Assembly (NCBI GenBank): GCA_030616165.1
Contig: JAUWXV010000029.1
Location: 1 to 23,914, forward strand
Length of the DNA: 23,914 nucleotides
DNA from: a bacterium
Lineage (GTDB): Bacteria; SM23-31; JAUVVT01
Direction: 5' to 3'
The position numbers were made by a program, and so were the translations under genes. This document shows, one piece after another, positions 6,735-23,580 of this stretch (position 1 is the first letter of the stretch; every line of letters starts with the position of its first letter). The notes under the pieces were generated by a model. That model ran no database searches. It had not been told where the DNA came from and was given only the letters and a program-made list of their open reading frames with translations.

Positions 6735-9700
6735 TTATCCCCTTTCTCTAATCTTTTCAAAACCAAAATATATAAGAGGAACAATAAACAAAGTAAAAAT
6801 AGTTGAAGTAATAAGACCCCCAATTGAAACAATAGCCATCGGAGACCTCATTTCAGCCCCTTCACCGAGTTCCAATGCCAAAGGCAGCATACCTAATATA
6901 GTAGCTAAATTCGCCATAATAATTGGTCTCAGCCGGGCTGAAGATGCTTCAAGAATAGCATCCTTTAATTCATGCCCCCTTCTTCTTAAAACACTTATAT
7001 AATCCAAAAGCAGTATTGCATTATTCACAACTATTCCAACAAGCATTATTACTGCCATTAAAGTGAGAATACTTACTGATTTTCCCGTAATAATCATTGA
7101 AGTAACCACTCCGATGAGCGCCAAAGGAAGCGAAAGCATAATAGTAAAGGGATGAATGAACGATCCAAGAATCCCAGCCAAAACAAGATATGTTAAAACA
7201 ATAGCCAGAATTAGTGCTTTATATAATTCTCCAAAAGATTCTTCCTGCATTTCGGTCATCCCACCATAAATAATATTATATCCTTCAGGAATTTGAAGTG
7301 CATCTGTCTCTCTTCTCATTTCTGAAACTACTGAACCTATACTTCTATTTACAACATTTCCAGTAATGGTTACAAGTCTCTTTTTATCCTTTCTTGTAAT
7401 CTGTATAGGTCCTCTTGCTTCAACAATGGATGCAACATCAGTTATAGGAATAAAGTTATCACCAGATTTTATTTTAATGTCTCTAATCTGATCGGCTTCA
7501 CTTCTATAAGGGTCTGCATATCTAACCCTTATATCATACTCTTTGTTTTGCACTCTGAATTTGGAAGCAACCTCTCCCTGAATACTTGTTCTAAGAACGC
7601 TTGCAAGTTCGAATATTGATATTCCTCTGTCTTCCATTATTTTTCTTTCAGGCACTACTCTAATCTCAGGAACACCGAGCCTCCAGCTTGACTGCACATC
7701 TATGACACCGGGTATATCCCTTTCCAGTTCCATAACCTTCATTGCAATATTGTTCAGAATATCTAAATCATCGCCGGTTATCTCAATAGTAAGACCGGAA
7801 GAGCCTCCCATTTCACTTCGTTCCTGAACGTAAATATCGGCTGCTGGAATCACCGCAAGTTTAGGTCTTAAATAATCTATGTATTCGAAAACAGACATAT
7901 CCCTCAAGTCCCTGTCAACAAGTTCAACAGTAATAGCACCCAGGTGAACACCTCGACCGCTCCCCATTCCGATACTTGTTCTCCTCGTACCAACCTCAGT
8001 ATATATTGTCTTTACTTCTTGAAACTCAGAAAGAATATTCTCTGCCGCAGTAATTGCCCGGTCGGTTTCTTCAAGACTTGAACCAGCAGGCATCTCAAAG
8101 TTTACTGTCAAAATACCCTGGTCAGATTGAGCAAAAAACTCACTTCCAATATACTTAAAAAGATAGATTGAACCAAAAAATGATATCAATATAAATGTCA
8201 ATACCACTGTGCCGTGTTCAAGTGTCCAGTTCAAATATCTTCTGTAGTCTTTTTTAATATTTTCGTAAGAGGTTTCCCAGAATAAAGTAAATTTATCAAT
8301 TATTCCAAATAATTTATTAAACAAATATATAAACAAAACAATTCCAAAAAATATAAAACTCAGTTTAAGATTAAAAAGGTAATTAAGAATAGCAATTGAA
8401 ATCCCTGCAGCGATTAAAATCAGGATTATTTTAACGCAATATTTTATAATCCTGAAAAACAGATTATTCCTGAGTAGTTTTAAATCTGTTGAGAATAATT
8501 TTCTAACAATTAACATTGTAATAAAAATACCTGCTATTAATGGAACAATCACAGTTTCGAGCCTTATTCCTCCAAAAGCATAAACACCTATTCCGCAAAG
8601 TAAAACACAAAGGATTAATAATGTAAAAACAGAAATCACAAATAAGACAAAAATATCAAATCCTTTTTTCTCTTTTTCTCTTTTTCTTAAGATAACCGAA
8701 GCAAGCATAGGTGTCAGTGTAAACGAGACTAAAAGCGAAAATAATGTTGCAAATGCAACAGTCAGACCAAATTGAAGAAAAAATCTTCCTACTATTCCCC
8801 CCATAAAAGCAATTGGTGTAAATACGACAATATTGGTAAAAGTTGATGCTACAACAGCAACAGCAATTTCAGTAGTTCCCTTTTCACTTGCTGATTTTGC
8901 ATCTTCTCCAAGCTCTTTATGCCTGAAAATATTTTCAAGAACAACTATTGAGTTGGTCACCAGTATTCCCACAGAGATTGCAAGCCCCATAAGTGTCAGA
9001 AAATTTATAGTAAATCCTGCAAATCTCAGTAATATAAACGTTGACACTATTGAGGAGGGCATCGCTATAGCTGCAATTAGAGTGCTTTGCCAGCTGTGCA
9101 AGAATAAGTAAAGAACAATTGCTGTGAGCAGTATCCCGATAATCATATTATTGAGAACTTCACTAATCGACTGCTCAATGAATATTGATTCATTTTGTGC
9201 TACGTTTATCTCAATATCAGAGGGAAGCATTCTTTTGATTCGATTTAATTCATTTTCCACTCTTTCAGCAACTTTCACCACATTAGCATCTGCCCTTTTT
9301 ATAAGACTTATTCCCACACTTGTTCTTTTATTATAACGAGCCATGTCTCTCTGTTCTGCAAATGTGTCATTTATTTCAGCAACATCTTCCAATCTTATAG
9401 GTTTAACTCCCTGAAGAATAATCTTCATTTCTCTTATTTCATCAACCGTATTAAATTCTCCTACAACTCTGATGGGATATTCTTTCCATTTTTCTGTAAT
9501 ATGACCACTCGGCAGATTAAGGTTTGCACCAGCAATTGCTCCAATTATATCGTCAATTGAAACATTATAGGCTCTCAACTTATCCCTTTTAACACCGATT
9601 AAAATTTCTCTCTCTTTTCCACCCACAATATTAACACCGGCAATACCCTCAATCTTGGAAAGTTCCGGCTTTATTATATCATCCGTCATCTCATAAATCT

Positions 9701-10151
9701 CACTTAAAGGTCTCGGACCTGATAACGCAAGGCTCATAATTGGCATCGCACCGATATCAAGTTTCATTATCGATGGCGCATATACATCTCTCGGAAGTTG
9801 AGTTCTGATAGCATCAATCTTGTCCTTTACATCCATAGCCGCAATATCAATATCGACCTCGAGTTGAAATTCTACTATCACAACCGATATCCCTTCAAGT
9901 GAACTCGAAGCGACAGTTTTAACTCCATTTATTGAACCAACAGCCTCTTCTATGGGTCTGGATACAAGTGTCTCTATTTCCGAAGGACCTGCTCCTGGAT
10001 ATATGGTTTGGACTGTAACCATGGGAAAATCAATCTCTGGGAAAAGATCAACAGAAAGGTCAAGATAAGAATATATCCCCAGAACAACAAAAAATAATAT
10101 TAATATCGAAATTAAAACAGGTTTCCCTACAGAAAGTCTTGATAAAAACAT
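6735..10151 (-). CDS. RND-family (HAE1/AcrB-like) efflux pump with an enlarged central membrane region
   Basis: This is a 1138-residue inner-membrane resistance-nodulation-division permease. TM1 (about 11-30) leads into a periplasmic porter half (to about 335), then TM2-TM6 (to about 487). A second half follows, with TM7 at about 647-667, a porter domain to about 975, and TM8-TM12. Family landmarks include FPEIDFP (37-43), YPGAGPSEIE (51-60), RLRPIIMANL (1073-1082) and GEGAEMRSP (1096-1104). Two features are odd. Residues about 498-617 add about four hydrophobic segments between TM6 and TM7, where AcrB has only a short amphipathic helix. The AcrB proton-relay pair D407/D408 is T399/N400, and K940 is N1043. 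The start is ATG with GGAGAAG upstream. It probably partners the adaptor at 11066-12121 and the TolC protein at 12215-13552; substrate unknown. Confidence 0.93.
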   Translation of the reverse strand: MFLSRLSVGKPVLISILILFFVVLGIYSYLDLSVDLFPEIDFPMVTVQTIYPGAGPSEIETLVSRPIEEAVGSINGVKTVASSSLEGISVVIVEFQLEVDIDIAAMDVKDKIDAIRTQLPRDVYAPSIMKLDIGAMPIMSLALSGPRPLSEIYEMTDDIIKPELSKIEGIAGVNIVGGKEREILIGVKRDKLRAYNVSIDDIIGAIAGANLNLPSGHITEKWKEYPIRVVGEFNTVDEIREMKIILQGVKPIRLEDVAEINDTFAEQRDMARYNKRTSVGISLIKRADANVVKVAERVENELNRIKRMLPSDIEINVAQNESIFIEQSISEVLNNMIIGILLTAIVLYLFLHSWQSTLIAAIAMPSSIVSTFILLRFAGFTINFLTLMGLAISVGILVTNSIVVLENIFRHKELGEDAKSASEKGTTEIAVAVVASTFTNIVVFTPIAFMGGIVGRFFLQFGLTVAFATLFSLLVSFTLTPMLASVILRKREKEKKGFDIFVLFVISVFTLLILCVLLCGIGVYAFGGIRLETVIVPLIAGIFITMLIVRKLFSTDLKLLRNNLFFRIIKYCVKIILILIAAGISIAILNYLFNLKLSFIFFGIVLFIYLFNKLFGIIDKFTLFWETSYENIKKDYRRYLNWTLEHGTVVLTFILISFFGSIYLFKYIGSEFFAQSDQGILTVNFEMPAGSSLEETDRAITAAENILSEFQEVKTIYTEVGTRRTSIGMGSGRGVHLGAITVELVDRDLRDMSVFEYIDYLRPKLAVIPAADIYVQERSEMGGSSGLTIEITGDDLDILNNIAMKVMELERDIPGVIDVQSSWRLGVPEIRVVPERKIMEDRGISIFELASVLRTSIQGEVASKFRVQNKEYDIRVRYADPYRSEADQIRDIKIKSGDNFIPITDVASIVEARGPIQITRKDKKRLVTITGNVVNRSIGSVVSEMRRETDALQIPEGYNIIYGGMTEMQEESFGELYKALILAIVLTYLVLAGILGSFIHPFTIMLSLPLALIGVVTSMIITGKSVSILTLMAVIMLVGIVVNNAILLLDYISVLRRRGHELKDAILEASSARLRPIIMANLATILGMLPLALELGEGAEMRSPMAIVSIGGLITSTIFTLFIVPLIYFGFEKIRERG

Positions 10152-10194
10152 CTATCTTCTCCAAAAAAATATCTTATACTCTGCAAAATGATAA

Positions 10195-10222
10195 TTTATA
10201 TAAAATTCATAGGGATTCACAA
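10195..10222 (-). promoter_or_regulatory. Candidate promoter for the RND pump
   Basis: On the minus strand TTGTGA (10217-10222) and TATAAA (10195-10200) are separated by 16 bp, about 45 bp upstream of the pump's ATG. This would let the pump be transcribed independently of the adaptor gene, from which the repeat block separates it. Confidence 0.4.
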
Positions 10223-10268
10223 AACTAATATTTTATTAACAATCAAAACATCATTATTAATCTTGTCG

Positions 10269-10286
10269 TTCCCGTGAAAACGGGAA
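10269..10286. repeat. GAAA-loop hairpin repeat, copy 1
   Basis: TTCCCGT pairs perfectly with ACGGGAA across a GAAA loop. It is the same design as the hairpin at 10801-10818, differing by one complementary base-pair change. It is followed by ATCCA, and an inverted ggattccc lies about 35 bp further on (10319-10326). Confidence 0.85.
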
Positions 10287-10425
10287 TCCATACGTTGTTT
10301 AGCCCCTTAATATTACTGGATTCCCACTTTTCAGTTCTCTGTTTGTGTTGTCACCAACATAGAAAATGCTTGTGTTGGTCAAAAAATCAACACACAGCAG
10401 AACAATAAGGTCAATTTATTTCAAT

Positions 10426-10454
10426 CTCGTTCCCAAACTTAGTTTGGTAACGAG
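10426..10454. repeat. Strong 13-pair hairpin repeat
   Basis: CTCGTT and CCAAACT pair with AGTTTGG and AACGAG, with one C/T mismatch and a single-base loop. This sequence type is a widespread intergenic repeat in many bacterial genomes. There is no T run on either side, so it is not a terminator. Confidence 0.8.
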
Positions 10455-10563
10455 AACTGGAATTTTTAAATTTACATAATTCTCAAAAATATGTTAACGG
10501 ACTGAACACTGCCTGCACACTGTGTTCTATCTCTGCATAATAATCATTTGCAATTGAATATAT

Positions 10564-10590
10564 TGTAGGGACAGGACATTGTCCTGTCCT
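10564..10590. repeat. TTGTAGGG-type dispersed repeat with a 10-bp palindrome
   Basis: After TTGTAGG, GGACAGGACA (10569-10578) pairs perfectly with TGTCCTGTCC (10580-10589) across one base. The same leading TGTAGGG is found at 14773 and at 23901, each followed by a different palindromic body. Confidence 0.75.
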
Positions 10591-10690
10591 TCTGTTCCAA
10601 AGTAAAAGTTGATCTTATTTCGTTTATTACTTCTCCATTTCAATAAATGTCAGGAAAATATATATCATTTATTATTTAATAAGGCTCTAA

Positions 10691-10945
10691 TGTAGTGTAA
10701 CGCAAATAACATTGATATAATATAGACATTTTAAATATTTGTTTAAACATAACATTATATAACTATAATCCCGGTATTGCCATTCCCGCCTCCTCTGTCA
10801 TTCCCGCGAAAGCGGGAATCCATTGATACAGAGTTCATCTCGATATGTTGAGTTTTCTGCTGGCGAAGGTGTTCCCACAAAATAGTCTATAATAATGTCT
10901 TTATATCACTGTATTATTAATAATAACTAATTGCGTTACACTACA
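10691..10945. mobile_element. 255-bp MITE-like element with 15-bp perfect terminal inverted repeats
   Basis: The left end TGTAGTGTAACGCAA (10691-10705) and right end TTGCGTTACACTACA (10931-10945) are exact inverted copies. The interior is A+T-rich, has no open frame of note, and carries a GAAA hairpin repeat (10801-10818). If the true ends are taken at TA, then TA-GTGTAACGC...GCGTTACAC-TA fits the TA target duplication of IS630/Tc1-type elements. No transposase is present, so mobility would need one in trans. Confidence 0.6.
10801..10818. repeat. GAAA-loop hairpin repeat, copy 2
   Basis: TTCCCGC pairs perfectly with GCGGGAA across a GAAA loop and is preceded by GTCA and followed by TCCAT. 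It resembles the widely dispersed intergenic repeat of the same core (Neisseria dRS3 is a similar design). It lies inside the MITE-like element. Confidence 0.85.
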
Positions 10946-11065
10946 CTAGATTTTTAATATGCGATTGCTACATCGCTATTCTCCTCGCAATGACATGTAT
11001 ATATTGTATTTGCAAAAAGCAAAAAAGTGTTTTGGTGACAACACCAACACACTAATAAAATTCAT

Positions 11066-12121
11066 TTAATTTATTATAAGAACTTTTCCCCCCCCCTTTA
11101 ATTGGTTCTGACCCCTGATTACTACTTTATCCCCTTCCCTTATTCCCTCAATAATCTCCAATTTATCCCCATCAACAATACCTGTTATTATACTTCTTTT
11201 TTCACAGACTAAATTGTCATTCACAACAAAAACAAAAGACCCTGATTCATCATTTACCCAGGCAAGTTTATCAATCACAACCACGTTTTCGTTCTCTTCG
11301 AGTATCAATTCTGCGGAAGCGAACATACCAGGTTTTAGATTCATATTTTTATTAGGAATAGTAATCCAGGCACTAAAACTGCGGTCGCTTGGGTCAGCCG
11401 ATAATGCTATTCTGTCAACTTTACCTTCATAAAAATTTCTTCCATCAAAAGAAACTCTCACAATTACCCTCTGCCCAACCGATAGAGTGTGTATATTGCT
11501 TTCACCGACTCTAATTTCGAGTTCTACCTCCTGAAACCTTGAAACCAGCACCACTTGCTGACCGGGATTAACAGTCTGACCTTCAACAACAAAAATATCT
11601 GTAACTACACCAGTAATTGGGGCACGAATATTAAGAAGTTCTTCCACAGATTCAAAGTTTGTTTCTGCCATTTTATACGCATTTTCCTGCCTGTCGAGAT
11701 CACTTGCAGAAACTGCCCCTTCTTTATATAGAGTCATGATTCTTTCCAGTTCTCTTTTTGCAAGTTCGAGGTTCAGCCGAGCCTGCTGAAATCTTGCACT
11801 TGGATTGCTCCTGCTTAATGTGGCTACAACTGAGCCATTTTGGACTCTGTCCCCTAACCTTACCCTTATATTCTCAATCCGCTCCTGTATTTTTGCTACT
11901 GCATCTGCCTGTTCTTTACCCTTTATTGTCCCAGAGTAAAATCTGCTCGTTTTAACACTGGAAATCTCGGCTGTTTTTATTTCAACTGGTATGCCCTGCT
12001 CGCTTTGAATATCTGGAATACTCAAAACCCTCTTCTTAGAATTTTCGATGTTCCTGAGAACTCCACTCGTTACAAATCCAGCAACTAATAATATCATAAT
12101 TATAAAAAATAACTTTTTCAT
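11066..12121 (-). CDS. RND efflux periplasmic adaptor (membrane fusion protein)
   Basis: This 351-residue HlyD/AcrA-type adaptor bridges an inner-membrane RND pump to a TolC channel. It has an N-terminal hydrophobic anchor/signal (4-21, no lipobox cysteine), then the first half of the biotinyl-lipoyl domain (about 74-103). A short helical hairpin (about 108-163) leads to the second lipoyl half, RAPITGVVTDIFVVEGQTV (166-184). The beta-barrel is at about 199-275, ending LKPGMFASAELIL. A membrane-proximal domain (about 280-351) ends the protein. Only one short hairpin is present, as in small FCB adaptors. The ATG is preceded by GGGAGAG at good spacing. It follows tolC by 93 bp and precedes the pump after the 914-bp repeat block. 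A run of nine G codes for Gly343-345, six residues before the end, and could slip. Confidence 0.92.
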   Translation of the reverse strand: MKKLFFIIMILLVAGFVTSGVLRNIENSKKRVLSIPDIQSEQGIPVEIKTAEISSVKTSRFYSGTIKGKEQADAVAKIQERIENIRVRLGDRVQNGSVVATLSRSNPSARFQQARLNLELAKRELERIMTLYKEGAVSASDLDRQENAYKMAETNFESVEELLNIRAPITGVVTDIFVVEGQTVNPGQQVVLVSRFQEVELEIRVGESNIHTLSVGQRVIVRVSFDGRNFYEGKVDRIALSADPSDRSFSAWITIPNKNMNLKPGMFASAELILEENENVVVIDKLAWVNDESGSFVFVVNDNLVCEKRSIITGIVDGDKLEIIEGIREGDKVVIRGQNQLKGGGKVLIIN

Positions 12122-12214: not shown

Positions 12215-13552
12215 TTACAATCCAACTGCCTTTTCCCAGTCGGTTTTTGCAACCAAATAATCGTATATTCCCTGAATATGTCCCATTCGAGCTCTTTCGA
12301 GAGCTAACTGAGCGTCGAACAATTCGAGTTGTGTTCCTATTCCACTATTATATCTCACCTCTGCTATTCTCAAAGCCTTTTCTGCTTGAATAACATTTTG
12401 TGCCTGTGTATCAACCATCTGCTTAGATTCTTTCATCTTAAGAACTGCTTGTTTAATCTCCATATTTATCCCTTCAACAAGTTTCATTCTTTGGTACTCC
12501 AATATCTGATAATCAGCCTCTGCTTGCTCAACCTTTGCATAAGTTCTCAACCCATCGAATATTGAAACCTGCATCTGGATACCAGCACTAAGACTAAATG
12601 CTCTTTGATTTTTCTTTAAGTAAAATTTATCTGACTGCCCTTGAAACTGAAGTCCTCCTGTTAAATATAAACTCGGGAACCAGTTTGATCTTTCGATTTT
12701 GATATTTAGTTCCTGCATCTCTGTTTGGAATTCAAGCTGCTTTAAATCTGCTCTTTTCTGGAAAGCTTTATTATTATTCTCTTTGATTACATCATCATCA
12801 AGTGGTTCATACGCATATGAACCCTCAACTTCTATTTCTTGATTAATATCTATTCCTAAAATATTTTTCAGTGAATTATATGCCAATTCAAGATTATTTT
12901 CTGCCTGTATAAGTGCTGGTTTAAAGTTAGACGCGTTTACTTCTGCTCTAAGTAAATCAAATTCAGATGATAATCCTTGAGAATTTAGTTTTTTGACATT
13001 ATCATAATGTGCTTCTGCTTGTTTTAATGTTATTTCTGCTACCCTTTTTGCTTCATCTGTAAGTAGAATAGTATAAAAGGTTTTTTTCACCTGAGCTTTT
13101 ATGTTTTTCCAGGTATTTTCGAGACCATATTCGGAAGAATTACTGTAAGCCCTTGCAATTTTGAGAGCTGTTCCTATCTTTCCACCAAGCCACAAAGGCT
13201 GATTAAAAGATAAAATATTTTGATAAGAGTTGTTACTTCCAATTTCTATCTTTTGGGTTTCATCTTCAATCGTTAGAAAAAATGCAGGTTTCAAAATATT
13301 GCGACTATAAACAGTACTCATAGATATCTGAGGTAGTGCACCCGACCAGGCTTCACGAACTCTGGCTCCCGCTTTCTTTGTCTCCTCCTGTGCTATCAAT
13401 ATATCTCTATTCTTCTTTTTTGCAATTTCCAGTGACATTTCTAAAGTCAAAACTATCTTATCATTTTCATCGGAAAATGCAATAATATCATTGAAAGAGA
13501 ATATTAAAAAAAATATAAATAAAAAAATACGCTTACCTATTTTATGGTTCAA
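12215..13552 (-). CDS. TolC-family outer-membrane efflux protein of the RND system
   Basis: This 445-residue outer-membrane factor has a signal peptide (positive GKR at 6-8, hydrophobic to about 25). Two homologous OEP repeats of long amphipathic helices follow. The first starts at TLEMSLEIAKKKNRDILIAQ and the second at about 240, ending LVAKTDWEKAVGL. The conserved YNSGIGTQLELFDAQLAL motif is present near the C-terminus. It should form the trimeric exit duct for the adaptor and pump encoded downstream. The start is TTG at 13552, supported by an excellent AAAGGAGG site five bases upstream; no better ATG exists. It is the first gene of this efflux run. Confidence 0.92.
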   Translation of the reverse strand: MNHKIGKRIFLFIFFLIFSFNDIIAFSDENDKIVLTLEMSLEIAKKKNRDILIAQEETKKAGARVREAWSGALPQISMSTVYSRNILKPAFFLTIEDETQKIEIGSNNSYQNILSFNQPLWLGGKIGTALKIARAYSNSSEYGLENTWKNIKAQVKKTFYTILLTDEAKRVAEITLKQAEAHYDNVKKLNSQGLSSEFDLLRAEVNASNFKPALIQAENNLELAYNSLKNILGIDINQEIEVEGSYAYEPLDDDVIKENNNKAFQKRADLKQLEFQTEMQELNIKIERSNWFPSLYLTGGLQFQGQSDKFYLKKNQRAFSLSAGIQMQVSIFDGLRTYAKVEQAEADYQILEYQRMKLVEGINMEIKQAVLKMKESKQMVDTQAQNVIQAEKALRIAEVRYNSGIGTQLELFDAQLALERARMGHIQGIYDYLVAKTDWEKAVGL

Positions 13553-14895: not shown

Positions 14896-17800
14896 CTATT
14901 TCATTATTACAAATTTTTCCAAAAAATTAAAATTTTCATCCTCGTTTTTGGCTATAATTTTATAAAAATAAACCCCATTGGCAAGATTATCTCCATCCTC
15001 ATCTTTTCCATCCCAGTAAATCTGATTATATCCCGCTTTACCGGGAGCATTATTCAAAACCTTTATTAACCTTCCTGATATTGTAAAAAGTTTTATAGAA
15101 ACCTCTTCGGCTTCTTTTGTTAAAACATAAGTAAAATATGTGTCTCTATCAACAGGATTAGGAAAATTATAAACTTTTGTTATTTCAAGATGAGAGGATA
15201 CTTTAAATCCGACTTCATAAAAACTTGAATTCTGTCCAATATCGGTTACTACGACCTTAAATTTATGTTCTCCATCTTCAAGAGATGGTGTATATATAAC
15301 TTCTGCTGATATATCACTTCCTGTAGGCTGGGGGATAAACTTGATTATTGGATTATTATAAAAGGAAATTTTTTTATTGTCAAGATATATTTCAACATTA
15401 GAAGTATCTTTTATTCCAGATGGATTATTATCTTTTATTCTTATTAAAATTTCAGGATTTTGTGAAACATAATCGCCGTCAATTGATGTTGCTCCGTCAA
15501 ATGTAACTTCTATTGATGGCGCCTCTTTATCTTCTATAATAAAAAGACTTATTAGACCGGAATTGTTAAAATCTGAAAGTTCATTTATAATATTATCAGG
15601 ATCAACCTCAACAAGAATTTTTATATTACCTTTATATCCAGAAGTATTAAATTCCGTATTTGCCGACTTAAATTTGTTTTGTAAAATATTATTAAGGACT
15701 AAATCGTCCCTGAATTTAAATCTCCCTTTTTCGGTCACGGCAAAAAATCTCACCACAATACTGTCAGCAGGCGAAAATCCGATATTATATATATCAGCAT
15801 AGATATTAACGCTTTCTCCCTCCAGTACAGAATCTTTATCTATCGAAACCAATTTGAAATTCGTGGAAAGATCACAAGCGGGTTCATAACTTAAAGTCCA
15901 CCCTGAAAGATATGGCGTATCAAGCCCATCATCATCAGAAAATTGCGCATTCAGTTTAAGTTTTGGATAATCATACGGATTAATACCGGATAAATCAAAT
16001 TCAACATTACTCGATATATCCTTATATATAGTATCCCAGGTAAACATTTCTTTATTAAAAGCAATAACATTTAAGACTAATTCAGTCCCATTTCCCGATA
16101 CATCTGCGACAGAAGAGAGAAATTTCCACCTTTTTGCATCATCTATTATCTTTGAAGTGATACTTCCATTCAAAAAAAGAGTTGAAATGCTGTCTTCTGC
16201 CACTGCTCTTCCTGTTCCTGCCTTTTTATGCTGTTCAGGGACACTCCCCGGAACCGCTCCTTTTCTTCCAATAATTGCATAAGAATCCTGAAAGCTGAGA
16301 TTATCAATCAACATACTTCCTATAGATTTCAGTGCATCTTTCGCCGAATTTGTTAATCCGTTTGAACCATCCGATACTACTCCACACATAACAATTCTAT
16401 TCTCTTCAGCACTATTTATGAAATCAGCCATTGCATCAGAATGTTCAGTAAACTGATGTGTATTAAAATGAACCGCCTTTTGCAACTGCCCTGTCTTTTC
16501 ATCTATTACCGCAGTGTAAAAACCCTGATTATAAAATCTTATCGGTAATAATGTTGTATCATATTCTGCAACTTTTACAATATCCTTATCCACATAAAGC
16601 ATGGCATAATCACCATCACTAAATCCCGCCGATTCAGAGCGCAAAAGTATATCCCGAGGAGCAAGGACTATATCACCATCAATTTTCAAATTATCGACTA
16701 AATTCTCTTCGAACATCTTTCCATTTTGAATCCATACAAACCCGGAATCTGATTCAAAATCAGAGTAAAAAATAGATTCTCCCCATCGGCTGTAATTCAC
16801 ACCATCAAAACTCCTCACCCTCCAGTAATAAATAGTTTTATCATAGTGAAGATCTACGATAACATCAGTAATAACCAATTTTTCTGGTACTGGATCTGAT
16901 TTATAAAATGGTTCATAGAAATTTGCGGAGGTATCTACTTCAAACTCTAATGTTCTTATGGGTGAAACTTCCTGGGAATGACAAAAGGCTTCGAGTTTAA
17001 CCTTTTCTGTATTGACCCGGCTGAAATTGGGGGGCTTTAACAAAGTAACACCGGAAGAAAACACGGTAATATCTCTTTCGGCTGTATTATTCTCTTCATT
17101 AACCTCGTCTATTAAATTCTCGGGATCAATCCTTACAATTATTCTGTGTTTGCCTTCTTTCTGATAAATTTCCCAGTTAACAGAAATTGTATCTTGAGTT
17201 CCTATTGGTTCAACTTCTATATTTTCTTTAATCGGGAAAATACCCTCACCCTCATATTCATCATATATTGAGACTTTCACAATGTCTGGTGTAAAAAGTC
17301 CATAATTATCAATTTTTATATCTATTGTAATCTGAAAATCCGTTTCATTAGGGAAATCATTACCGAATATAATATTGTCTGTTTTGACAACAAGGTCAGG
17401 TCTGTCTGGAAGAGCAAGACTTACACAAGGGTCACCTAAAAGTGTATATTGATTTACGAGATTTGTCGCCTCCTGTTTATATTTTTCCCCCATTTTCCCC
17501 CAGAGATTGATTTTAGCATCCGTAGCCAAAATTCCAAACATCCTTACAGAATCTATAAAAGCCCGTGTAAAGAGCCCTCTCTGAATAACATCATCCAGTT
17601 GAATATATCCCCATCCTGTTGTCCCAAAGTATTCGATTGCTCCCTTATCCCCGACTAAAAGATAATCTTCACCGAGCGATAATACATTAGGATTTGCAAA
17701 TTTTCCCGTGTTGCAAGACATACTCACCATAAATGGATACTTCTTATAGTTATTCAAATCTGAAGGCCTTCCGAAATCAACATCGTAAGTCTGTGGTGCA

Positions 17801-20277
17801 GCATGTCCTGCTGAATTTACCCATAATACTCCTTCATCTATTATATTTATTATTTCATCGCGGTGGGTAAAATCTATTAAATCCGTTGTAGTTTTATTAA
17901 TAACTATATTTTCCATCCCTGATGGCGGTGGCGATGTAATTTCATTTACAATATAATTTGAACTCGCCTGAAAGAGATCCTGTTCATGAGAATCTATACC
18001 ACCATTTATTAACAATATCCTTTTATTCCAGAGATTAAATTCATACGATTCATAATCTAAAATTTTCTGAATATAATTTTCAGCCTGTTCTTCCGTGGCA
18101 GCAGGAATCCTCCCAAGATACATATCAGGTAAAATATCATCCTCCCCATCAAGAGAATCGAGAGATACAAACCAGTTATCACTTGCCGGAAAACCGTATG
18201 AAGGAACATAGTTTTCGTATTTGCTCGCATAGCCTTTCTTTTTATAATCCCAACTGGCATCCCCAAACATCACAAGAAATGACGGAACCACAGTCCAATT
18301 ATTGTAAGCAAATTTGAGAAAATCCTTCACAGCATAAGGTGTTTCTATCCCATAATTAAACTCATTATAAATATCTTCCACATCAACAACCATAGTTTGA
18401 AAAGAATTCTTATTTATTCTATATTCCGAAAGTGAATTCGCAAATTCTTTAAACTTTTCATGAGTAATTATTAAGTAATCTGCCGAATTTGAAGGATTCT
18501 TAAGGTCTGCAAAAGAAAATTTCTTTACATCGGCTGGCAGTAAAAATCCATCTCCACATACTGCAAAATATACTCTTTCATCAACTGCAATAGTATCTTC
18601 AAATACCACATTGAACAGATTCCCTACCTGTTCTACCTGAAAATTTATTATCCTCTTTTGATTAGTTATATCAATAATTTCAACGTCATCACTTCCAAAT
18701 CCATCAAGGAGATACCTTGTTCCGTTATTTTCTGGTGAAGAAAATTTAATCATATTATCAAAAGCAGAATATCTTCGAGGGTAATCAATTTCTATCCAGT
18801 CCATATAAACCATATCAATCTCCCCTCCTAAAATCTCATTCGTAATAGTAAAAACATTTTCCCCTTCTTTTATAATTCCCTTGTCAATATTGAATTCTGC
18901 AATATAATCCATCCTTCCATCAAATACAACATCTCCCACTTCGGCATCGTTTATTTTTATTTTAAGATGATGATTTTCTATTTCCACCATATCAGTAATT
19001 CCACGAAACTTTATTCTTGTTTTAAGACTATCACCTTGGTTAGTTAATCCATTTACATAGATATTAAAACTCCTGCTTCTCCCGGCTTCAAAACTTGTCC
19101 AATACCACCCTTCTCCCTGAACTTCGTCAGTAATTCGGATTTGTTCATCTGTATCCCCTCCACTGTATAAAATATCGAGTTCGTTATGCTGTTTTTCTAT
19201 GAAGAAATTAGCCTCATTTCCATCTTTTAAAGAACCATCATAATCTTCAAATCGTTTTCCCTCTTCTCCACCCCAGCTCAACCAATAAACATTTTTGTCT
19301 GTATAAGGGTCAAAAAATTCAGTAATCCCCCATTTTCTCGTGCCGTAAAAAATTATATAATCCAATTCAGCGAAACTACTATCCGCTTCACCGCTGACAT
19401 AAATAGGAATTTCATCTTCCCTATTGAATATTCTAATTGTCCGAGGATCAATCTCAGAAATATTTATTCCCATAGAAATAAGATAATCATAAGAAAGTTT
19501 ATATAGACCATCCTCTTCCGTTTCAATTTTATACTTAAAATCTTCTAAAGAATAAATATCGTCAGGTTTTGCTTTTTTCTCAATTACAGAAGAGCCCTTA
19601 GAATTCCATTTAATAACATCATCATAATTAATCAGGTTCTTAAAAGTATCTTTAAAATATTTTATCGAAATTTCGTTTCTTTTTGGAATCTTCTCAAGTC
19701 TCGAATCTTCCGAGAATTTTATTAATAACTTTATATATCTATAAACCTTCAATACCTTTTGGGGGGGATTGTACTGCAGGGGGTGTATCTGGATAGCACA
19801 TACCTTCTGCATTCGGATAAATCCCTCATCAGTGATTTCTGCAATTGTTCCAGGAAAATACTTATCGGACGAATATACCTGTTTGTCAAAAAAATAGTTA
19901 TATTCAAATTCCCCGATATTATCAAACCTTTCAATTTCGGGGGCAGGGGGTATATCTTCATTCTCAACCGTAAAAAAATCGGCCTCAATTATTTCAACAC
20001 TTGCTATTTTGTTATAAGGAACACCGAATTGCCATGATATAACAGGAAGTTCAGGTTCACCCGGATTTCCTATACTCAATTCACCGGGTATAATTATCTT
20101 TTTATAATTTTTATCGGCTATAGTAACATAATCAAATTTAAAATTTATTTCACTAATTGATACAATAATTTCGTTTTCAGAGGAATTTACTAATCTTATC
20201 TCTGCGGAAAATGAGGGAATTGTAAACAAAATAGAAAAAATTAAGATGTAAAATAAATAATTTTTTACAAAAGACAT
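14896..20277 (-). CDS. Secreted C25 (gingipain-type) cysteine peptidase, PorU2-like, with type IX sorting domain
   Basis: This is a 1793-residue exported multidomain protein. A signal peptide (about 1-24, ending SFSA) is followed by a long N-terminal beta-rich region (to about 590). The C25 caspase-like peptidase domain spans about 600-958, with catalytic H825 (NSAGH) and C855 (SMSCNTGKF), 30 residues apart as in gingipains. Then come a CARDB-like domain (about 958-1075), a fibronectin-III-like domain (about 1085-1175), and a FAM3/ILEI-like domain (about 1240-1340; LIDNLSFQDSYAIIGRKGA). A second CARDB (about 1468-1580) and an Ig-like domain (about 1585-1695) follow. The C-terminal FlgD-like sorting domain (1700-1793) has FPNPV and WDGKDEDG-LANGVYFYKI. 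PorU proteins cleave type IX sorting signals; whether this is a sortase or a secreted protease is not decided. Monocistronic; the ribosome-binding site is weak. Confidence 0.9.
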   Translation of the reverse strand: MSFVKNYLFYILIFSILFTIPSFSAEIRLVNSSENEIIVSISEINFKFDYVTIADKNYKKIIIPGELSIGNPGEPELPVISWQFGVPYNKIASVEIIEADFFTVENEDIPPAPEIERFDNIGEFEYNYFFDKQVYSSDKYFPGTIAEITDEGFIRMQKVCAIQIHPLQYNPPQKVLKVYRYIKLLIKFSEDSRLEKIPKRNEISIKYFKDTFKNLINYDDVIKWNSKGSSVIEKKAKPDDIYSLEDFKYKIETEEDGLYKLSYDYLISMGINISEIDPRTIRIFNREDEIPIYVSGEADSSFAELDYIIFYGTRKWGITEFFDPYTDKNVYWLSWGGEEGKRFEDYDGSLKDGNEANFFIEKQHNELDILYSGGDTDEQIRITDEVQGEGWYWTSFEAGRSRSFNIYVNGLTNQGDSLKTRIKFRGITDMVEIENHHLKIKINDAEVGDVVFDGRMDYIAEFNIDKGIIKEGENVFTITNEILGGEIDMVYMDWIEIDYPRRYSAFDNMIKFSSPENNGTRYLLDGFGSDDVEIIDITNQKRIINFQVEQVGNLFNVVFEDTIAVDERVYFAVCGDGFLLPADVKKFSFADLKNPSNSADYLIITHEKFKEFANSLSEYRINKNSFQTMVVDVEDIYNEFNYGIETPYAVKDFLKFAYNNWTVVPSFLVMFGDASWDYKKKGYASKYENYVPSYGFPASDNWFVSLDSLDGEDDILPDMYLGRIPAATEEQAENYIQKILDYESYEFNLWNKRILLINGGIDSHEQDLFQASSNYIVNEITSPPPSGMENIVINKTTTDLIDFTHRDEIINIIDEGVLWVNSAGHAAPQTYDVDFGRPSDLNNYKKYPFMVSMSCNTGKFANPNVLSLGEDYLLVGDKGAIEYFGTTGWGYIQLDDVIQRGLFTRAFIDSVRMFGILATDAKINLWGKMGEKYKQEATNLVNQYTLLGDPCVSLALPDRPDLVVKTDNIIFGNDFPNETDFQITIDIKIDNYGLFTPDIVKVSIYDEYEGEGIFPIKENIEVEPIGTQDTISVNWEIYQKEGKHRIIVRIDPENLIDEVNEENNTAERDITVFSSGVTLLKPPNFSRVNTEKVKLEAFCHSQEVSPIRTLEFEVDTSANFYEPFYKSDPVPEKLVITDVIVDLHYDKTIYYWRVRSFDGVNYSRWGESIFYSDFESDSGFVWIQNGKMFEENLVDNLKIDGDIVLAPRDILLRSESAGFSDGDYAMLYVDKDIVKVAEYDTTLLPIRFYNQGFYTAVIDEKTGQLQKAVHFNTHQFTEHSDAMADFINSAEENRIVMCGVVSDGSNGLTNSAKDALKSIGSMLIDNLSFQDSYAIIGRKGAVPGSVPEQHKKAGTGRAVAEDSISTLFLNGSITSKIIDDAKRWKFLSSVADVSGNGTELVLNVIAFNKEMFTWDTIYKDISSNVEFDLSGINPYDYPKLKLNAQFSDDDGLDTPYLSGWTLSYEPACDLSTNFKLVSIDKDSVLEGESVNIYADIYNIGFSPADSIVVRFFAVTEKGRFKFRDDLVLNNILQNKFKSANTEFNTSGYKGNIKILVEVDPDNIINELSDFNNSGLISLFIIEDKEAPSIEVTFDGATSIDGDYVSQNPEILIRIKDNNPSGIKDTSNVEIYLDNKKISFYNNPIIKFIPQPTGSDISAEVIYTPSLEDGEHKFKVVVTDIGQNSSFYEVGFKVSSHLEITKVYNFPNPVDRDTYFTYVLTKEAEEVSIKLFTISGRLIKVLNNAPGKAGYNQIYWDGKDEDGDNLANGVYFYKIIAKNEDENFNFLEKFVIMK

Positions 20278-20483: not shown

Positions 20484-20612
20484 TAGAGTTTTAAATTTTA
20501 GCATAATTAATAATCCGTTTTAAATAAAATTTTGAATATTTAAGATAAATATTTTGTATAAGAACAATTGTATTTTTAATTGCACTCATATAATAAAAAA
20601 ATGGAGGATATT

Positions 20613-22046
20613 GTGATTAGAAAATTTATGATTAATATAATAATTTTCACCTTATTTCAATTTACTTTAACTAAAGGTAGTGAACCAAGGATTCTGACAC
20701 TTGAAGAGAGTTTAAAAATTGCATTTGAAAGGAGTTACGATATAAAATATACGGAGCAGGAGTTGATTCGCGACCGGGAGAATGTAAAAGCAGCGAGGGC
20801 TGCACTCAAATCAAACGCAAATTTTAAATTTTACTCCCCATCTTTTAGAACGGAATACAGGGAGGTATATGACTGGGAGGAAGATGTCTTTATATATGAA
20901 TACACCCAGAAGAACAGAATGATGAGTCAACTTGTAATTAACCAGCCAATCCCCACTAATGGCAATTTCTCTTTAAACTATGATTTTTTTCATGAAACGC
21001 AACTTGGTGACATCAGAAATTTTTCTAATTATTTATATCTTAAATTTGAACAGCCAATCTTTACGCCGAACGTTCTAAGTATGGGAATAAGAAGAGCAGA
21101 ACTTGGGCTGGAAACAACAGAACTCGACTATAAAGATGAAAAACTGGAAATTGAATACGACATTACAAGTTCATACTTCCAGGTCTTCAGAACATCTACA
21201 CAAGTTGATATATACGAAAAAAAAGTTGAACTACTTGAAGAATCTTATGATATAGCAGAAGATTTACAAAAAAGGGGACTGATTGAAGAGATGGAAATTC
21301 TTCAACTTGAAGTAGAATTAGCAAACAGCAGAGATGAACTTCTGGATAGAGAGGGAAGTTTTGAAAGTAGGACAAACTCTTTTAAACAAACTATTGGGCT
21401 GCCTCCATCTGAAGATATCAGGATTATTACTGATTTAACATATATTCCGGTAAATATCGATGATGAAATAAGAGAAAGAACAACAGCGATAGGAATTAAA
21501 AACAGCATGAGAATCAGAGAAAATGAAATTAGAAAAGAACAGGGAGCATTGCGTGTTATCGATATGGATAGACTGAGAGAATTTAAGGGAAGTATTGTAA
21601 CTACTCTTGGATTTGACAAAAAGGATCCCTATTTTAAAGAGACATTAAGAAATCCTGACCAAACCAGGAGCATCACAATTGAACTATATTTACCTCTCTG
21701 GGACTGGGGAAGAAATAAAGCACAGGTCAGAAGCGCAGAAGCTTCACTAAGACGCTCAGAAATTTCTCTCGAAGAGAGTATATTAGATATAAAAAGAAGG
21801 TTAGAAGATGAATTAAGAGATATACAGGAAGCATCTAATCGTCTTGAAATCCTTGAAAGGAGCAAGGGTCTTGCTGAAAAAAGTTATTATCTCGGATTAG
21901 ACAAATTCAAAAACAATGAAATTAGCAGTCAGGATTTAATATTATCTCTTGAGCAATTAATCCGTTCAAATGATGCTTTTCTGGATGCATTTATTGATTT
22001 TCAACTTGCTAAAGCACAATTAAAAAGAATGGTCAATGGTGGATAA
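20613..22046 (+). CDS. TolC-family outer-membrane protein, first of a tandem pair
   Basis: This outer-membrane efflux (OEP) protein has 477 residues from the start chosen here. An upstream TTG at 20580 is in frame. However, GTG at 20613 has a perfect GGAGG five bases ahead (20603-20607), and from it a normal signal peptide begins (MIRKFMINIIIFTLFQFTL, cleavage near KGSEP). OEP helices start at LTLEESLKIAFERSYDIKY. A conserved middle block contains INQPIPTNGNFSLN and QPIFTPN. The second repeat carries LPLWDWGRNKAQV, a common TolC-family motif. It is clearly paralogous to the next gene, which overlaps it slightly or follows closely. It would form an exit channel for a pump or type I secretion system not in the window. 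Confidence 0.85.
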   Translation: MIRKFMINIIIFTLFQFTLTKGSEPRILTLEESLKIAFERSYDIKYTEQELIRDRENVKAARAALKSNANFKFYSPSFRTEYREVYDWEEDVFIYEYTQKNRMMSQLVINQPIPTNGNFSLNYDFFHETQLGDIRNFSNYLYLKFEQPIFTPNVLSMGIRRAELGLETTELDYKDEKLEIEYDITSSYFQVFRTSTQVDIYEKKVELLEESYDIAEDLQKRGLIEEMEILQLEVELANSRDELLDREGSFESRTNSFKQTIGLPPSEDIRIITDLTYIPVNIDDEIRERTTAIGIKNSMRIRENEIRKEQGALRVIDMDRLREFKGSIVTTLGFDKKDPYFKETLRNPDQTRSITIELYLPLWDWGRNKAQVRSAEASLRRSEISLEESILDIKRRLEDELRDIQEASNRLEILERSKGLAEKSYYLGLDKFKNNEISSQDLILSLEQLIRSNDAFLDAFIDFQLAKAQLKRMVNGG

Positions 22047-22077
22047 TCTACCCTGTAAAATTAGGGATATTTTCCCG

Positions 22078-23580
22078 ATGAATATTAAATTTTTTAAAAT
22101 TATATTTCAGAAAATGGATAAATTTATCAGATTAATCTCATTATTGTTTATAGTTATCCCTATTCTTTCAAATCAAAGCTTTGGATTTAATATTAGAACC
22201 CTAATCCTCGAAGAATGTATTAACATAGCATTAGAAAAAAGCCCTGAGATTATGTATTTAAAGTCTGACCTTGAAAGAGACCAACAGCGAGTAAAAGCAA
22301 CAAGAGCAGGTCTTAAGTCCAATGCTTCTGCCAACTTTTATCTCCCTTCTCTCCATGATATGATTGATGAAATTTATGATAGCAGTGAGAAAATATTTAA
22401 ATTTAAACATACAAGAAGAAATAGAATTTTATCCAATTTAAGAATAAATCAACCTATTCCAACAAATGGAAATTTCTCATTAAATCATATATTCTTTTAT
22501 GAAACCCAACTTCATGGCGTTAGAAATTTCTCAAACCATTTTTATTTGGAATATGTCCAGCCAATATTTACACCAAATTTACTCAAAATGAACATAAGGA
22601 GAGCAGAACTTTCATTAAGAAGAACACAATTACAATATGAATCGAGAAGGCTGAATCTTATACATTCTATTACTTCAAACTTTTACGAGTTATATAAATC
22701 CACAGTTGAATACGAAATTCAGGCTGCTGAAACAAAACAAAGAGAAACAGCAGTAAAATCCGCAGAAGAAAAATTAAAATCGGGTGGAATCGATGAAATG
22801 GAATTGACCCAGCTTGAGGTTGCACTTTCCAACAGTAGAGCGGAACTCTTATCGAGAAAAAAAGAACTTGAGGAAAAAACAAATTGGTTTAAACAAATAA
22901 TCGGATTATTCACAGAAGATGAAATCAGGATTAGTCCAGACCTTGACTTTACACCCGAAATAGTCGAACCGGAATCTGTGGTTAAAGAGGGTCTTAATAA
23001 CAGTATAATCTTTAAAGAATATGAAATTAATCTTGAATCTTCAAGGCTGCGTGTTATCGATGCTCAACGAAGAAACGAATTTAAAGGAGATATAATTATT
23101 TCATTAGGTTTAGATAATAAAGACCCACTATTTTCTGAAAGTTTTTCGCACTTTGATAGGACAAACAGCATCATTCTTAATTTCAGTATGCCTTTGTGGG
23201 ATTGGGGCAGAAATAAAGCACAAGTTGCATCCGCAACGGCTTCTCTAAGAAGAACAGTACTATCAGCAGAAGAAAACAGAAAAAGTGTCGAGCGGGAACT
23301 GCGCGAGGCTGTGAGAAAAATTAATGAGGCAACTAATAGACTGAATATTTTAAAAAGGAGTCAGCAAACTGCGCAAAAGAGTTACGACATGATTTTAGAA
23401 AAATTTAACATGGGCGAGATAAGTGCCCAAGACCTCGAGCGAGCACAGAGAAGACTTACAAGAACCAAATTATCACACATCGATGCTGTTGTCGATTATC
23501 AAATCGCAATGTCTGACCTTGAAAGGAGAAAAAGCGGCGGCTTTGGATTCGTGAGAATTCAAAGAGGAGGAGGAAGATAA
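22078..23580 (+). CDS. TolC-family outer-membrane protein, second of a tandem pair
   Basis: This is a paralogue of the preceding gene, 500 residues from the ATG at 22078. The frame is open to an ATG at 22036 that would overlap the first gene by 11 bp. The chosen start has AGGGA about 10 bp upstream. An ATG at 22114 gives the shortest signal peptide but no ribosome-binding site. The signal core is RLISLLFIVIPILSNQSFG. It shares with its neighbour INQPIPTNGNFSLN, ETQL, RNFSN, QPIFTPN, IRRAEL and MPLWDWGRNKAQV. The helical second half ends with a Gly/Arg-rich tail (RKSGGFGFVRIQRGGGR) absent from the first copy. A tandem duplication is evident; whether they form mixed trimers or serve different pumps cannot be seen. 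Confidence 0.85.
   Translation: MNIKFFKIIFQKMDKFIRLISLLFIVIPILSNQSFGFNIRTLILEECINIALEKSPEIMYLKSDLERDQQRVKATRAGLKSNASANFYLPSLHDMIDEIYDSSEKIFKFKHTRRNRILSNLRINQPIPTNGNFSLNHIFFYETQLHGVRNFSNHFYLEYVQPIFTPNLLKMNIRRAELSLRRTQLQYESRRLNLIHSITSNFYELYKSTVEYEIQAAETKQRETAVKSAEEKLKSGGIDEMELTQLEVALSNSRAELLSRKKELEEKTNWFKQIIGLFTEDEIRISPDLDFTPEIVEPESVVKEGLNNSIIFKEYEINLESSRLRVIDAQRRNEFKGDIIISLGLDNKDPLFSESFSHFDRTNSIILNFSMPLWDWGRNKAQVASATASLRRTVLSAEENRKSVERELREAVRKINEATNRLNILKRSQQTAQKSYDMILEKFNMGEISAQDLERAQRRLTRTKLSHIDAVVDYQIAMSDLERRKSGGFGFVRIQRGGGR

Follow-up and report, generated by a model that had tools for sequence, protein, structure and literature searches.

A predicted four-helix membrane insert in a tripartite-type RND permease from a clade without the TM4 aspartates

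The efflux operon and its membrane insert

The window, by which we mean the whole 23,914-nucleotide stretch of bacterial contig JAUWXV010000029.1 that was analysed, carries the genes of an efflux system: a TolC-like outer-membrane factor, a periplasmic adaptor and an AcrB-like RND permease (Table 1). The adaptor and TolC partner genes thus stand in the operon of the pump, as they do in HAE1 systems. Nearly all inspected loci with a sequenced flank share the order TolC-MFP-RND and have one pump gene; a few contigs stop before the partner genes, and the scoring covered ORFs of 120 aa or more. TrkA/TrkH genes adjoin the pump in the window only, among the loci inspected. The source genome also encodes several other RND pumps, some of which have a TM4 Asp.

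Table 1. Features of the efflux system in the window; residue numbers are those of the permease, and fractions count Asp-less versus Asp-bearing alignment rows, which are related to each other so that the counts are not independent (one of the 50 Asp-less rows, which has K-N at 399/400, is possibly a C-terminal half assigned wrongly).
Feature	Position	Strand	Evidence
RND permease (AcrB-like), 1138 aa, insert-bearing	6735..10151	-	Pfam ACR_tran; AlphaFold core
TM10 N1043-N1044; N1043 at AcrB K940	7020..7025	-	alignments
Ialpha amphipathic helix, residues 617-645, kept after the insert	8217..8303	-	AlphaFold; conserved with other pumps
Membrane insert, residues about 491-616, TM6 to Ialpha	8304..8681	-	linker length; conserved in 4 genomes
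Predicted extra helix D, residues 595-615	8307..8369	-	hydropathy; AlphaFold, low pLDDT; hairpin comparison
Predicted extra helix C, residues 564-592	8376..8462	-	hydropathy; AlphaFold, low pLDDT; hairpin comparison
Predicted extra helix B, residues 532-553	8493..8558	-	hydropathy; AlphaFold, low pLDDT
Predicted extra helix A, residues 500-526	8574..8654	-	hydropathy; AlphaFold, low pLDDT
T469 in TM6, one turn from conserved S472 (AcrB S481)	8745..8747	-	47/50 vs 5/82
N440 in TM5	8832..8834	-	49/50 vs 3/82
TM4 T399-N400, at AcrB D407-D408	8952..8957	-	alignments; GX3DX6E defined in PMC5719797
T343 in TM2, invariant in the Asp-less clade	9123..9125	-	50/50 vs 9/82
Periplasmic adaptor (MFP), same system	11066..12121	-	TIGR01730, 188.5 bits, above cut-off 94.9
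TolC-like outer-membrane factor, same system	12215..13552	-	Pfam OEP; conserved order

Some other features of the window deserve mention. The adaptor and pump genes are adjacent in most relatives, whereas here a gap of 914 bp (10152-11065) separates them. The gap contains dispersed palindromic repeats, and the repeat GGATTCCCGYTTTCRCGGGAAYGAC is present in 17 copies in the genome, two of them within this gap. Positions 14896-20277 encode a 1793-aa secreted protein that, judged from its sequence, is a probable peptidase of the C25 (gingipain-like) type whose C-terminal region is of the sorting type. Genes for a tandem pair of outer-membrane efflux proteins resembling TolC follow at 20580-23580, the first of them with a Pfam match; no adaptor or pump gene stands beside this pair within the window.

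The permease matches Pfam ACR_tran with 866.7 bits (cut-off 28), in two stretches on either side of an unmatched insert. AlphaFold, run on the whole pump with an alignment of ten sequences, gives a mean pLDDT of 74 and a pTM of 0.67, with the core mostly at 70-90. The modelled core is folded like AcrB, with two porter halves and the 12 core TM helices. In Foldseek comparisons with AcrD, AcrB, MdtB and others, its TM-scores are 0.68-0.74 by query; by target they are as high as 0.82.

A preliminary description of this DNA had pointed to about four hydrophobic stretches at 8295-8660 (residues 498-619, minus strand). AlphaFold indeed predicts four helices there, and hydropathy shows four strong stretches, with maxima at residues 500-518 (3.29), 531-549 (2.43), 575-593 (2.57) and 600-618 (2.24). 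Ialpha still follows the insert in the model, and TM7 comes after it at residues 647-667. The insert is real and lies far outside the usual linker range: the TM6-to-TM7 linker measures 135-139 aa in this pump, against 5-29 aa in a first set of ordinary pumps, and of 102 distinct linkers from pumps that are not in the hairpin clade, nearly all are 33 aa or shorter.

The pLDDT of the insert is only 37-55 in the whole-pump model. When the insert was folded alone, from three sequences, these helices appeared again, at pLDDT 57. Helicity and helix number are thus predicted by two models as well as by hydropathy; the packing of the helices lacks such support because the insert is modelled with low confidence (pLDDT 37-57). 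The flanking charges point to the topology. In all four insert-bearing sequences the Lys and Arg residues per flank number 4-6 (cytoplasmic), 0-1 (periplasmic), 4 (cytoplasmic), 0-1 (periplasmic) and 4-5 (cytoplasmic), as expected from the positive-inside rule for two hairpins. This pattern agrees with the argument, made in the preliminary description, that an even number of added segments would keep the second half of the pump correctly oriented.

The four sequences are the pump itself and three relatives with the full insert, from genomes G001 (72% overall identity), G004 and G002 (53 and 52%); the G001 and G004 copies are also present as public records L041 and L042. The linker is 139 aa in all four. 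The helices of the insert contain no charged residue conserved across these sequences, and the invariant residues are a G-F-D before helix A and Leu-Phe and Leu-Gly turns. Relative to L041, identity is 55% in the insert and 74% in the core, and dN/dS is 0.27 and 0.11, respectively; these comparisons indicate that the insert is under relaxed yet purifying selection. Its phylogenetic range is narrow. The four-helix insert occurs in 4 of 6 genomes examined from its own small phylum (the two without it, G003 and G005, are 83 and 63% complete), and no full-length match was found in the other genomes of a 386-genome bacterial survey. Searches of Pfam, PHROGs, the PDB and a plasmid collection gave no family match. 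As candidates for a known domain, weak Pfam hits to SMIM5, MASE1, Yip1 and DUF4231 were rejected, each being to a single member and below cut-off where shown.

The Asp-less core and the sister pumps

In AcrB the proton relay consists of D407 and D408 in TM4, K940 in TM10, R971 and T978, and replacing a highly conserved residue abolishes transport (PMC8277102). D407 belongs to the GX3DX6E motif; conservation is lower at D408 and at the TM10 base, and this base is not absolutely essential (PMC5719797). D408 contacts S481 and the backbone of L442 (PMC4359379). Removal of the acidic membrane-core site stops both AcrB and MexB (PMC8277102, PMC5719797).

The pump has none of this acidic site. Its GX3DX6E motif reads GILVTNSIVVLE, that is G-ILV-T-NSIVVL-E, in which the D407 aspartate is absent. 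T978 is replaced by Ala, and R971 is retained as R1073. Moreover, both aspartates are absent from all pumps with one or two hairpins (2-TM or 4-TM) whose TM4 could be read: D407/D408 is replaced by [TAVN]-Asn and K940 by Asn. The conserved charges left in the TM zone are E406 (of the GX3DX6E motif), D1050, R1073 and R1075, of which D1050 is near-invariant across RND pumps. The conserved polar core of the Asp-less clade comprises T343, N400, N440, T469, N1043 and N1044. By analogy with AcrB it is plausible that these polar residues line what was once the proton site, because T469 is one helical turn from the equivalent of S481.

Loss of the aspartates reaches far beyond pumps with an insert. 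When a TM2-TM6 profile of the hairpin pumps was run over 385 genomes, 28 of the 30 best read-out loci were Asp-less, the exceptions being L178 (Asp-Asp) and L181 (Asp-Asn). The Asp-less loci come from many families and have short ordinary linkers, except for the known hairpin pumps. The plasmid collection was searched for named cultured hosts of Asp-less pumps, with Asp-less TM2-TM6 segments and one full pump; the matches were Asp-bearing wherever TM4 was read, including NolG (GILIDDAIVVRE). Locus L181 looks like an intermediate for the Asp-less clade, with Asp-Asn in TM4 yet N440 and T469. The pump itself is a member of the Asp-less hairpin RND clade that we define by the absence of a TM4 Asp, by N400, N440, T469 and N1043, and by a membrane hairpin before Ialpha.

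A profile of the insert also detected partial relatives. Many pumps of the phylum of genome G299 (39 genomes) match the second half of the insert, with E-values down to 1.9e-15. In the 17 sister pumps that were read out, the linker is exactly 53 aa and holds one hydrophobic hairpin before Ialpha; helix C probably corresponds to the first half of this single hairpin. The profile match to the 53-aa-linker pumps is strongest over Ialpha, and a comparison of the hairpins alone is in register but weak (hhalign probability 30%, P 5.5e-4). As far as sequence comparison goes, the second hairpin and the one found singly in the sister clade probably have a common origin. The first hairpin is specific to the four-helix lineage; the ideas that it copies the second or corresponds to the 2-TM hairpin were rejected, since it resembles neither. 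The preliminary description had set the design apart from AcrB-type pumps. This stands to the extent that the insert was seen in no ordinary pump examined, but the design is no isolated oddity, since the sister clade has a two-helix version.

We built a tree on core columns, leaving out the insert and relay columns and the fragment rows L007, L096 and L116. A branch with an SH-aLRT of 99.7 separates the Asp-less rows from the others. The 2-TM and 4-TM hairpin pumps group together with a value that is not decisive (SH-aLRT 92.8), the 2-TM clade at 96 and the 4-TM clade at 100, and the hairpin pumps are nested within the Asp-less pumps. The simplest order suggested by this tree is that the aspartates were lost first and the hairpins gained later. 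Each change is about one event on the tree, so their association is no statistical proof of a functional link.

Some sister loci have a further set of genes. At L134 and L140 a PadR-type regulator, a second adaptor and an Asp-bearing RND gene adjoin the hairpin pump operon. L137 starts the same regulator and second-adaptor set beside its hairpin pump operon, and the contig falls short of the RND gene.

Possible roles of the hairpins

We consider it moderately probable that the protein is a tripartite-efflux permease in which an AcrB-like core without the proton relay is combined with two hairpins that act as a rim brace or docking module, and with a non-canonical drive. In this explanation the pump is the inner-membrane permease of a TolC-adaptor-RND system. 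Its 12-TM core is intact in fold, but neutral residues stand at the relay positions of its clade, Thr/Ala-Asn for the two TM4 aspartates and Asn for the TM10 lysine, with a clade-specific polar network (T343, N400, N440, T469, N1043/N1044) around them. The two hairpins (four helices, from TM6 to Ialpha) are both predicted to start and end in the cytoplasm. They are likely to face the lipid from the outside, at the corner of TM6, Ialpha, TM7 and TM12, because in the AcrB trimer Ialpha is found at the cytosolic rim and TM1 and TM7 at the periphery (PMC5719797, PMC8277102). There they would brace the relative movement of the two TM repeats, or offer a docking surface for a lipid, a substrate or a small partner. 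As for the role of the helices, we infer that they most likely serve, at the periphery, to brace the TM6/Ialpha/TM7 rim or as a docking module there. The insert as an alternative ion path was rejected as unlikely, because its helices have no conserved charged residue.

The residues of the core make the canonical D407/D408 proton cycle an unlikely means of energy coupling. The pump would instead depend on a different ion site, a different titratable residue or some other drive, and a relocated titratable site (E406/D1050/R1073) may be one candidate. The preliminary description had proposed that the insert could change coupling; signs of such a possible change are present in the core, where the Asp/Asp/Lys relay is gone, rather than in the insert. 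A broader idea, possible though doubtful, is that a wide class of tripartite RND pumps without the Asp relay runs on another ion (for example Na+ at the Thr/Asn cluster) or on another drive, and that one branch added hairpins for its changed coupling.

Other explanations of the insert have to be weighed against the brace or docking module. The hydrophobic helices might be a neutral, lineage-specific elaboration with no specific role, tolerated at a permissive cytoplasmic junction. The lower identity and higher dN/dS of the insert relative to the core fit this, as do the unrelated inserts that the TM6-TM7 junction of other pumps has taken (L080-L082, L027, L074, L077). Neutrality is harder to square with exact constancy of length in four pumps of one kind and 17 of the other, with a dN/dS well below 1 or with the invariant G-F-D and turn residues, and we judge it rather unlikely. 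A specific docking role, in which the insert either binds a small membrane protein or a lipid, much as AcrB binds AcrZ, or takes the place of such a protein in cis, seems to us somewhat less likely again. It would suit both the peripheral position beside Ialpha that the literature leads one to expect and the presence of extra helices without conserved charges, but the inspected operons have no conserved small membrane gene among their scored ORFs (120 aa or more) and the insert is without any family match.

It could also be that the Asp-less pump works only in a hetero-oligomer whose energy comes through an Asp-bearing partner, an arrangement proposed for MdtBC, and that the insert serves hetero-assembly. 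Candidate partners exist, both among the other RND pumps of the source genome that have a TM4 Asp and in the Asp-bearing RND gene that adjoins the hairpin operon at L134 and L140 (L137 begins the same set). In the window and in most relatives, however, the operon has just one RND gene, and the neighbouring second pump has its own adaptor; we regard this explanation as distinctly improbable. Finally, the source assembly is fragmented (343 contigs), and an assembly or frameshift artefact could in principle fuse two genes. We reject this and give it almost no credence, because independent contigs carry the same insert: it is in one open frame and of the same length in four genomes of two families, with records L041 and L042 among them.

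The reading that we prefer, an Asp-less permease with a rim brace or docking module, bears on how RND pumps are driven. Those of described coupling depend on an acidic membrane-core site (PMC8277102, PMC5719797). A widespread Asp-less clade with full tripartite machinery makes the question of RND drive directly testable. Moreover, the nested series of none, one and two hairpins at one site provides natural constructs for the contribution of the TM6-TM7 junction.

Comparison with known RND pumps

HAE1 pumps of the AcrB/MexB type share with this pump the two-repeat 12-TM core with its large periplasmic loops and an operon with adaptor and TolC; an Ialpha helix ahead of TM7, as in those pumps, is also predicted here. 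They differ in that the pump has four added helices before Ialpha and that D407, D408, K940 and T978 are not conserved. Its NCBIfam scores are all below cut-off: 482.5 bits for TIGR00915 (HAE1; cut-off 940.35), 754.8 bits for NF033617 (cut-off 1250) and 462.3 bits for TIGR00914 (CusA/CzcA heavy-metal RND; cut-off 701.45), though the insert itself may lower the TIGR00915 and NF033617 subfamily scores. Because the highly conserved motif is broken and the HAE1 score falls below its cut-off, we do not file the pump as a typical H+-driven HAE1 pump. The preliminary description knew of no RND subclass with this design, and searches of open-access literature likewise turned up neither an insert of this kind nor an Asp-less HAE1/tripartite RND class, which is weak evidence.

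The closest solved chain by sequence is MdtB (PDB 9lyq), with an AcrB-like fold and a phmmer E-value of 1.3e-139 over both halves. Unlike the pump, MdtB has GFVVDDAIVVIE in TM4. Its linker is short: the alignment goes from residue 504 to 509 in MdtB while the pump goes from 493 to 620.

Other pumps with inserts between TM6 and TM7 or at TM7 (L080-L082, L027, L074, L077, L089) resemble this one in having extra, partly hydrophobic sequence near the junction. They differ in being Asp-bearing where TM4 was read, and in the inserts themselves, which are unrelated in sequence, 101-224 aa long and in several cases mainly amphipathic. L080, L081 and L082 (from G004, G002 and G005) are RND pumps of about 1250 aa and of one class, with unrelated TM6-TM7 inserts of 215-224 aa that contain long hydrophobic stretches; TM4 has Asp-Asn where read (L081). 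In L089/L030 (G009), which has Asp-Asp in TM4, about three additional hydrophobic segments are inserted beyond the point where TM7 starts. L027/L088, L026, L074 and L077 have linkers of about 100-120 aa that are amphipathic or partly hydrophobic and apparently independent inserts (107 aa in L027, 101 aa in L074 and 118 aa in L077).

The nearest counterparts are the Asp-less pumps with the 53-aa linker (G299 and relatives among G388-G421). They have the same insertion site, the same Asp-less signature and the same operon order, and form the sister clade; they carry one hairpin instead of two, the first being absent. Set beside all of these systems, the pump is a real RND variant, nested in a broad and apparently undescribed Asp-less clade.
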